A DNA stretch of 64,000 nt from Macrocystis pyrifera. Lineage: Eukaryota; Sar; Phaeophyceae; Laminariales; Laminariaceae. Shown in pieces: positions 1,007 through 60,110 of the stretch. The stretch is from positions 1,612,001 to 1,676,000 of the forward strand of contig JASSKH010000037.1 of the NCBI GenBank assembly GCA_031763025.1, written 5' to 3'. The notes beneath the pieces were generated by a model that saw nothing but the letters and a program-made list of their open reading frames with translations, ran no database searches and was not told where the DNA came from. A program made the translations under genes and the position numbers. Every line of letters begins with the position of its first letter. Position 1 is the stretch's first letter.

Positions 1007-1492
<486 letters not shown>

Positions 1493-1556
1493 GCACTTCT
1501 TGCCTAGCTAGGGGTCGAATGCACTCATCGCCAGACGCCCCAAGTACAAACCACCT

Positions 1557-1590
1557 GGTGTTTACTCAACACCACCAACCTGACGAAAGA
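1557..1590 (+). terminator. Histone mRNA 3' hairpin and purine-rich downstream element (H4 copy 1)
   Basis: GGTGTTTACTCAACACC at 1557-1573 forms a 6-bp stem (GGTGTT/AACACC) with a 5-nt loop, followed by ACCA and, 12 nt past the stem, GAAAGA (1585-1590). The order is the one used by animal histone genes: stem-loop, ACCCA-like flank, then the U7-pairing element. Stem and loop are identical in all four histone genes of the window. Confidence 0.85.
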
Positions 1591-2319
1591 CAAGTGCAGC
1601 TGCTGAGTCTTGCACGAACAACTGCATATGACCGGACTTGTGATGCTCTCCAGCGCCCGGGCGAGTGACGGGAGCCAAGGAGGCGATATCTCACGTGCAT
1701 ATTTCAGGTGCGAAAGCCTTCCGTCCCGATATTTTTTTGCCTGTGCCTGTACGACGATAATTTGAATTTTGCTGCCGTTGTGCCTCGGTTTTCGGTTGTT
1801 GGTGCACCTGGTACATACCTACAACAGTAGTACGTCGCGGCGCGGCCTGGTCGCCTCTTCGCTTGAGTGAACTGCTGTTGTGAGAGGTGGTTTTGTTACC
1901 AGTCGATACATGGATACTGCTGCTGATGTTGTGCATGCCTCTCTCTTTCCATGTGGTGTGATCATATACGTCTTTGTCGAATTTGAATTTCGTGCTGGGC
2001 CAACTGAAACTGCTGTTTATTACGAGTGCTCTCACGGCGTCCTTCAGCAGTGCCTTGTGCTGCGTATATATGATGCATAGCTGCATGCAACTCGTTGTAT
2101 TAATAGTACAACGCCACATCCGTCAAGGTTTTCACACTCGTAACCCTACTCGTAGTCTGCTGCGCGGTGAATAGACAATGAGCCCCTGTTCAAAACCCAA
2201 GGTCAAGCGTTCAGCAGGCAGCGCTGAACCCAACTGCTGTTGAGTTCTGCTATTTCTAACGTCGTACGTAAAGCATCATCAGAGAATCGATTTGCACAAC
2301 TGCAGCACATAGTATTAAT

Positions 2320-42712: not shown

Positions 42713-42750
42713 TTTTTCTTTCGGGACTTGGGTGGTGTTGAGTAAACACC
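42713..42750 (-). terminator. Histone 3' hairpin and GAAAGA element (H2B)
   Basis: On the minus strand GGTGTTTACTCAACACC (42734-42750) lies 92 nt past the stop, followed by ACCCA and then CCCGAAAGAAAAA. Confidence 0.85.
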
Positions 42751-42842: not shown

Positions 42843-43202
42843 TTAGGCGGAGTAAGAAGAGGTGAACTTGGTCACGGCCTTGGTGCCCTCAGACACGGCG
42901 TGCTTGGCAAGCTCTCCGGGAAGCATGAGGCGCACCGCCGTCTGCACCTCGCGCGAGGAGAGAGTCGCCTTCTTGTTGTACCGGGTCAGCTTTCCGGACT
43001 CGCCGGCCACGCGCTCGAACACGTCGTTGATGAACGAGTTCATGATGGACATTCCGCGCTTGGAGATACCCGTGTCGGGGTGTACCTGCTTGAGCACCTT
43101 GTAGATGTACGAGGAGTAAGACTCGGTCCTCTTGTTGCTCTTCTTCTTGTCTCCGGCCTTCTTGGGGGCCTTGGCGGACTTCTTGGAGGGGGTCTTAGCC
43201 AT
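42843..43202 (-). CDS. H2B: Histone H2B, intronless
   Basis: The 119-residue product forms the H2A-H2B dimer of the nucleosome. It opens [20 protein letters not shown], has the histone fold from [19 protein letters not shown] onward and ends [12 protein letters not shown], the stramenopile type. An in-frame ATG lies 29 codons upstream (43289), but the added residues are unlike any H2B tail and the MAKTP start is conserved. It is transcribed away from H2A and shares a 350-bp promoter with it. Confidence 0.97.
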
Positions 43203-43552: not shown

Positions 43553-43927
43553 ATGTCCGGAAAAGGAAAGGGAGGCCGAGGGGACGGCAAGAAGTCCACC
43601 ACCAGGTCCGCCAAGGCCGGACTCCAGTTCCCCGTGGGACGTGTGGGCCGCTTCCTCAAGGCTGGCAAGTACGCCCAGCGCGTGGGCGCCGGCGCCCCCG
43701 TGTACCTGGCCGCTGTGCTTGAGTACCTGACCGCCGAGGTGCTCGAGCTGGCTGGCAACGCCGCCCGCGACAACAAGAAGGCCCGCATCATCCCCCGCCA
43801 CATCCAGCTGGCTGTACGCAACGACGAGGAGCTGAACAAGCTTCTCGGCGAGGTGACGATCGCGTCCGGTGGTGTCCTGCCCAACATCCACGCCGTCCTC
43901 CTCCCCAAGAAGGTCGTGAAGAAGTAA
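43553..43927 (+). CDS. H2A: Histone H2A, intronless
   Basis: The 124-residue core histone opens [20 protein letters not shown], has [20 protein letters not shown] and the acidic-patch region, and ends [10 protein letters not shown]. It lacks the SQ(E/D) tail of H2A.X and the insertions of H2A.Z, so it is a canonical replication-type H2A. It pairs with the divergent H2B upstream. No intron. Confidence 0.97.
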
Positions 43928-44038: not shown

Positions 44039-44075
44039 GGTGTTTACTCAACACCACCCAGACAAAAGAAAGAAA
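44039..44075 (+). terminator. Histone 3' hairpin and GAAAGA element (H2A)
   Basis: GGTGTTTACTCAACACC at 44039-44055, 111 nt past the stop, then ACCCA and AAAAGAAAGAAA at 44064-44075. Confidence 0.85.
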
Positions 44076-59620: not shown

Positions 59621-59621
59621 T

Positions 59622-59657
59622 TTTCTTTCTTGAGGTTGGTGGTGTTGAGTAAACACC
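59622..59657 (-). terminator. Histone 3' hairpin and CAAGAAAGA element (H4 copy 2)
   Basis: On the minus strand GGTGTTTACTCAACACC (59641-59657) lies 63 nt past the stop, followed by ACCA and CAAGAAAGA (59624-59632), which equals the sea-urchin histone downstream element word for word. Confidence 0.88.

Positions 59658-59720: not shown

Positions 59721-60110
<390 letters not shown>

Follow-up and report, generated by a model that had tools for sequence, protein, structure and literature searches.

A lineage-specific histone 3′ hairpin in the kelp Macrocystis pyrifera and its occurrence in LTR retrotransposons

The closest described counterpart of the system reported here is the 3′ end of the replication-dependent histone genes of animals, and in a stretch of 64,000 nucleotides from the kelp Macrocystis pyrifera (contig JASSKH010000037.1, positions 1,612,001 to 1,676,000; hereafter the window) four histone genes end in a comparable hairpin, GGTGTTTACTCAACACC. 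As in animals, the kelp genes are intronless and clustered, the hairpin stands soon after the stop codon and is followed by ACC(C)A, a purine element begins about 9-13 nt past the stem, a stem-loop-binding protein (SLBP) is encoded, and H2A.Z and two-exon H3-type genes have no hairpin. Unlike in animals, the kelp stem is GGTGTT/AACACC and not GGCTCT/AGAGCC, the loop has five nucleotides and not four, a seventh pair is invariant, the signal is common to retrotransposons and no U7 RNA was found. The kelp hairpin also departs from the animal type in its Rfam score: the best match of window positions 1500-1640 was Histone3 (RF00032), whose gathering score is 34, with 12.6 bits (sub-threshold scoring covered this first site only), and at gathering scores no Rfam family matched in the window.

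Outside animals, Davila Lopez and Samuelsson reportedly described in 2008 histone stem-loops in Chlamydomonas/Volvox, Dictyostelium, alveolates and trypanosomes. Kelp resembles these green-algal and protozoan cases in having both hairpin and SLBP. A purine downstream element joined to the hairpin is to our knowledge an animal trait, and kelp, a stramenopile, differs from the green algae and protozoa in having one. For the protozoa, PMC6723414 reports the hairpin in some of them, with Perkinsus having it and dinoflagellates lacking it.

The second system for comparison is that of the Ty3-like long terminal repeat (LTR) retrotransposons (Metaviridae), which a kelp family that we call LTR-A resembles in its TGTT...AACA ends, its reverse transcriptase followed by RNase H, its polypurine tract and its TATA-like box. 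In PMC3601003, LTRs are taken to unite promoter and polyadenylation site, and AATAAA is described as well conserved in all the Metaviridae and retroviruses investigated, that of the Zam group being not very clear, and as not conserved in plant Pseudoviridae. Unlike the Metaviridae of that text, LTR-A has the histone hairpin and a purine box where AATAAA would stand. The best reading of these data, and one that we consider fairly probable, is that kelp histone mRNAs have SLBP-type ends and that LTR retrotransposons end their RNA by the same signal. In the listed titles and opening lines of abstracts of open-licence PMC papers, a coverage that leaves out subscription journals and so leaves the unpublished status of the finding unproven, no histone hairpin was reported in an LTR retrotransposon or a brown alga. 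Additionally, a search of the open-licence PMC literature for SLBP together with Ectocarpus found no paper, and the words stem-loop and hairpin are absent from PMC12459048 and PMC7784034.

The histone hairpin and its purine element

All four copies of GGTGTTTACTCAACACC in the window are exact and lie 3′ of a histone stop, behind H4, H2B, H2A and H4 genes and at gaps of 64, 92, 111 and 63 nt, respectively (Table 1), as the original prediction, drawn from the window alone, had stated. With up to three mismatches allowed, the window contains no further site save reverse-complement readings of the same four, and 0.14 matches would be expected (100 shuffles). The accompanying remark that the hairpin occurs nowhere else thus stands for the window and falls for the genome, where GGTGTTTACTCAACACC has 57 exact copies against none in a reversed control and about 0.06 expected by chance in 537 Mb (arithmetic with uniform bases). 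These comprise 26 copies 3′ of histone genes, 28 in one LTR family and three in two other repeat-like contexts.

Genome-wide, the hairpin follows 28 histone genes (seven H4, six H3, six H2B, five H2A, one H2A.O-like and three H1): the 26 with an exact copy, an H2B with GGTGTTTACTAAACACC (C127:1025714, locus L063; C and L are our contig and locus labels) and an H2A ending in SQDY with GGTGTTTCCTAAACACC (C136, L091). In these intronless replication histone genes it stands within about 150 nt of the stop, as at SLBP-type 3′ ends. A Pfam histone census (25 matches, a lower bound with H4 outside its coverage, which leaves room for hairpin-free H4 genes) placed the hairpin behind 6 of 6 intronless H3, 6 of 6 H2B and 5 of 5 clustered H2A genes. 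Among replacement variants, H2A.Z (L090) and two two-exon H3-type genes (L092, L094) had no histone hairpin in the downstream DNA read, that of L094 holding only an unrelated TGCAGC/GCTGCA stem, and the H2A.O-like gene does carry one. An H3-like gene of uncertain end (L093) also had none in the downstream DNA read. These data support the hairpin as a mark of clustered, replication-type histone genes that was missing from the DNA read behind H2A.Z and the two two-exon H3-type genes.

The H2A.Z gene (C127:1611644-1611904, minus strand) lies just left of window position 1 and adjoins the replication histone cluster without carrying the hairpin, which makes it a natural negative control. The clustered hairpin genes are found on two contigs (C127:973436-1852903 and C128:3289584-3520674), where they are spread over hundreds of kb. 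The H1 genes (L006, L014 on the minus strand and L017 on the plus strand) were called by eye from lysine-rich reading frames, and the frame of L017 appears to shift. The gene ending in SQDY (C136:594600-595400) is the H2A.O of PMC12459048, termed ubiquitously expressed in the abstract of that paper; its hairpin variant and a GAAAGAA box suggest replication-type RNA processing. The window H2A, from its place beside H2B and its lack of an SQDY tail, is probably the H2A.E of the same paper.

The hairpin is longer than first proposed, since T at position -1 and A at position +1 are invariant in 28 of 28 genes and raise the predicted six pairs to seven. The letters 5′ of the stem are mostly A and C, and ACC followed by C or A comes after it in all 28 genes, with one ACA exception at L009. 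Both the ACC(C)A flank and the purine element that had been noticed downstream are present at all four window sites, where a box like AAAGAAAA begins at the distances given in Table 1, and genome-wide the box is position-specific. Within nucleotides 5-32 past the stem, the best match to AAAGAAAA had a mean of 1.04 mismatches, compared with 2.79 (standard deviation 0.13, minimum 2.39) in 2000 single-base shuffles. At most one mismatch was seen in 18 of the 28 genes (shuffle maximum 8), and control stretches of equal length, three further downstream and one upstream, gave 0 or 1 such match in 28 each. The box begins 9-13 nt past the stem in 26 genes and at 7 and 4 nt in the remaining two, which is the arrangement of a purine histone downstream element (HDE) of the U7 type at a fixed distance.

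Table 1. Histone genes, hairpins and purine elements in the window.
Feature	Position	Strand	Remark
Histone H4 gene, intronless	1181..1492	+	translation
Histone 3′ hairpin, stem GGTGTT/AACACC, loop TACTC	1557..1573	+	outer T1556-A1574 is the seventh pair
Purine element AAAGACAA, HDE-like, 12 nt after stem	1586..1593	+	
Histone H2B gene, intronless	42843..43202	-	
H2B histone 3′ hairpin	42734..42750	-	
Purine element AAAGAAAA, 12 nt after H2B stem	42714..42721	-	
Histone H2A gene, intronless, divergent from H2B	43553..43927	+	
H2A histone 3′ hairpin	44039..44055	+	
Purine element AAAGAAAG, 9 nt after H2A stem	44065..44072	+	
Histone H4 gene, intronless	59721..60032	-	
H4 histone 3′ hairpin	59641..59657	-	
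Purine element AAAGAAAA, 12 nt after H4 stem	59621..59628	-	

SLBP and the search for a U7-like RNA

The genome has one Pfam match to the SLBP RNA-binding domain, covering profile positions 1-32, and two more exons lie downstream of it (C129, minus strand, 574267-574149, 569273-569198 and 566520-566407). Joined in phase, the three exons match PF15247 with 102.1 bits over positions 1-70 of 70, and the closest solved structures are those of SLBP (4tux, E 1.2e-18; also 4l8r, E 2e-16). An SLBP had been anticipated from the hairpin alone, and a complete RNA-binding domain is indeed encoded. According to the anatomy described above and to this gene, the replication histone genes (H1, H2A, H2B, H3 and H4) would end in a lineage-specific stem-loop of 7 bp with a 5-nt loop, ACC(C)A and AAAGAAAA, to which the encoded SLBP would bind. 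The pre-mRNA would then be cut between hairpin and purine box without addition of poly(A), and a U7-like RNA or some other factor would recognise the box.

The U7-like ribonucleoprotein that the original prediction had considered possible gained no such backing, as profile and pattern searches of the genome yielded no convincing RNA candidate. With the Rfam U7 model (RF00066) nothing was found at E ≤ 10 among the 65 of 51,453 first-look candidates that were scored. A pattern joining the HDE complement to an Sm-like site matched 595 times against 330 in the reversed control (100 among the matches listed) and was discarded as non-discriminating. Likewise, patterns joining a U2-type upstream element to TTTCTT gave 26 matches against 7 and 58 against 22 in controls, many of them copies of a few repeats, and by eye no convincing small nuclear RNA (snRNA) layout was seen among the listed strings. 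The U2 snRNA itself had 25 matches (23 above the cut-off), 12 of them in one 76-kb stretch (C189:22131610-22207693), and, by eye, 8 of the 14 U2 genes read have in common an element like ATCTCCGGCTGACAG lying about 60 nt upstream of their start.

These searches favour a cleavage independent of U7, in which a protein would read the purine box directly; this alternative concerns one step only, is compatible with the rest, and is a possibility that we would put somewhat short of even. Small, fast-evolving RNAs are easily missed in searches, however, and the kelp box is similar to CAAGAAAGA, an element that in sea urchins pairs with U7. The hallmark to be expected of a kelp U7 is UUUUCUUU near the 5′ end of a capped RNA of about 60 nt.

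The hairpin in LTR retrotransposons

The 31 exact copies away from histone genes are not distributed at random, as 28 of them lie on the sense strand of LTR-A, membership of which was judged with a hairpin-masked query. Occurrence of the 17-mer at random away from histone genes had been named in advance as evidence against the histone interpretation; the copies are indeed outside, but in this ordered form they extend the interpretation and do not refute it. With up to one mismatch to GGTGTTTACTCAACACC, the genome has 399 copies (about 100 among the matches listed) compared with two in the control. Two variants dominate, GGTGTTTACTAAACACC with 214 copies and GGTGTTTACTCGACACC with 99. Of 30 GGTGTTTACTAAACACC loci read, 29 were LTR-A and one was the H2B gene, three of the 29 being in the opposite orientation (the variant is nearly palindromic), and all five GGTGTTTACTCGACACC loci read were LTR-A. 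The three classes together amount to 370 copies, of which 27 belong to histone genes, 62 were read as LTR-A, three lie elsewhere and 278 were unread; among the unread, pairs about 6.5 or 10.5 kb apart resemble LTR pairs. The 20-mer GGTGTTTACTCAACACCACC had no copy in viral contigs.

LTR-A consists of 521-bp repeats (TGTTGCAG...CTGTAACA) that form LTR pairs with inverted TG..CA ends. In the copy at L045 a TATA-like box at position 129 precedes the hairpin (210-226, sense) by 81 nt, and the purine box follows the hairpin at about the histone distance. Polypurine AGGGGGGG stands before three 3′ LTRs, and two elements show, by eye, short target duplications (CTAC and CTAG). In one element, on the strand of the hairpins and between two hairpins 10.5 kb apart (C126), RVT_1 (67.1 bits) and RT_RNaseH (107.2 bits) were found; for integrase, the sole piece searched, one of 214 aa upstream of a 3′ LTR, had no Pfam match at E 0.1. 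Nine neighbouring LTR pairs, each taken as one element, are 87.5-99.8% identical, and the upper value indicates that some insertions are recent. An inverted fragment of the LTR-A U5 (unique 5′) region lies inside an element (L045:2007-2307) and ends within the right arm of the hairpin. AATAAA occurs in 2 of 93 LTR-A copies over LTR positions 101-330, so that this signal is rare where the R (repeat) region of the family is expected. If transcription begins about 30 nt past the TATA-like box, R would be about 60-70 nt long, and the histone hairpin would occupy the place where the poly(A) signal of the R/U5 border is expected.

The other three exact copies stand in two repeat-like contexts, putative LTRs. 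L028 and L029 (C193) are 81% alike over 2.3 kb and have no LTR-A match around the hairpin; visual inspection shows an LTR-like start, TGTTGCAGCGC, and, past the hairpin, letters rich in purines. L031 (C198) represents a third context when LTR-A is counted, without detectable LTR-A similarity around the hairpin and with a TATA-like box, by eye, about 75 nt before it. LTR-A is absent from the window, in which the sole similarity to it is a stretch of 43-46 bases about the hairpin at each of the two H4 3′ ends.

To obtain LTR copies chosen without regard to the hairpin, we took the 40 best matches to a 255-base U5 query, 40 of its 1246 first-look candidates having been scored. By hand comparison 19 of them were already listed as exact (7) or TCGA (12) hairpins, and the other 21 were fetched; 18 of these fold with at least six contiguous pairs (G-U counted here and below), one has an interrupted stem and two, L101 and L105, have lost the hairpin. 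At least six contiguous pairs are thus present in 37 of the 40. A fold energy of -5 or lower was reached by 16 of the 21 copies, including L105, whose fold is another structure, compared with 7.9% of shuffles, which were made from copies of 20-45 nt only. The main variants (ACTAAAC, ACAAAAC and CTCGAC) alter the loop or form a G-U pair and retain the stem.

Furthermore, a covariance model was trained on nothing but the 28 histone ends and run over 41 of 131 sequence sources (106,640 bases), where it gave 29 matches at E ≤ 1. These comprised the four window histones (training members, 65-71 bits), L028 (42.0 bits), L029 (36.4 bits), L031 (30.5 bits), a second copy in L031, of LTR-A (25.2 bits), all five TCGA-class LTRs and, among the 21 unselected LTR-A copies, 16; nothing else matched, including the rest of the window and four variant histone loci. 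A comparison aimed at the nearest histone donor of the LTR hairpin singled out none; the similarity of the LTR-A downstream letters to those of histones is within the shuffle range (mean 4.39 compared with 3.81, standard deviation 0.61).

A proposed host signal for the RNA ends of mobile elements

Taken together, kelp histone genes would end in a form of the known SLBP-type 3′ end that is new and peculiar to this lineage and that includes a purine element resembling that of animals; in LTR-A the same signal stands where an LTR needs an RNA 3′ end. The likeliest function of the hairpin in LTR-A would be to have the RNA 3′ end formed at this place by SLBP and the histone cleavage machinery, and accumulation of LTR-A RNA would thereby be tied to S phase. 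Several results weigh against this reading. In the covariance model, LTR-A scores (15.7-30 bits) lie far under those of the window histones, and of the 21 unselected LTRs four pass E 0.01, ten pass 0.03 and five miss E ≤ 1, the match of L097 spanning 15 positions only. Because most of these matches are weak, we lowered our confidence in the reading. In addition, per-base differences in 20 of the 21 fetched copies are higher in the hairpin (0.189 in arms of seven, 0.417 in the loop) than in its flanks (0.032 and 0.025), an excess for which we hold responsible the reference copy, whose loop is a minority form, and the masking of the query at this place; the comparison gives no sign of purifying selection on the LTR hairpin. 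Intact stems are themselves weak evidence of selection, since the 40 copies share descent, resemble one copy and are mostly young. Lastly, brown algae may use a poly(A) signal other than AATAAA, and no U7 RNA turned up in our searches.

Among the alternatives that bear on the LTRs, the strongest, though an unlikely one in our view, is that the hairpin is a passenger, the histone part being right: a histone 3′ end would have been captured once and inherited by the copies, and the RNA would be polyadenylated elsewhere in the LTR. Such a history agrees with the presence of 28 of the 31 non-histone exact copies in a single family, with the loss of the hairpin in some copies and with the lack of constraint in the per-base comparison. 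However, a passenger does not account for a hairpin placed in sense between the TATA-like box and U5, nor for main variants that spare the stem, nor for the exact 17-mer in the two contexts that lack detectable LTR-A similarity, given its chance expectation and empty control. A further alternative, which we regard as improbable, gives the hairpins a role in mRNAs that are already polyadenylated, where, bound by SLBP, they would govern stability or translation. Some animal and protozoan histone mRNAs have both signals, and TGTAA, which serves as a poly(A) signal in some algae, lies no more than 200 nt past the hairpin in 6 of the 28 histone genes. In contrast, AATAAA occurs in just 2 of 28 within the same distance (3 of 28 when the 150 nt preceding the hairpin are included), and a purine box fixed in position is what cleavage would call for, with no obvious role in an mRNA that runs on to a poly(A) tail. 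Finally, an LTR hairpin serving dimerisation, packaging or strand transfer, with a likeness to histones by convergence, is very improbable, since a generic stem-loop would not be expected to share 17 letters with the histone hairpin and, beyond these, both ACC past the stem and a purine box spaced as in histone genes.

The reading preferred here, a common signal for histone and LTR RNA ends, has a bolder form that we put forward tentatively, holding it about evenly poised after the weakness of most model matches to unselected LTRs had lowered it as well. The LTR family would have swapped its poly(A) signal for the histone signal of the host, so that its genomic RNA would arise in S phase, bind SLBP, be cut by the histone machinery and lack poly(A); the hairpin would set the R/U5 border and hence strand transfer, and two other repeat families of this genome would likewise have gained the signal.

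If the histone part is true, an animal-like layout of hairpin and purine box exists in a stramenopile, which would bear on whether U7-type processing predates animals, and replication-coupled histones of brown algae could be recognised in genomes simply by this hairpin. In this regard, its presence at the clustered H2A.E genes, for which PMC12459048 argues an ancestry shared with replication-coupled H2A, suggests a regulation of the replication-coupled kind. If the retrotransposon part is also true, mobile elements would terminate their RNA with a non-poly(A) mRNA end, and retrotransposition would thereby be coupled to DNA replication.
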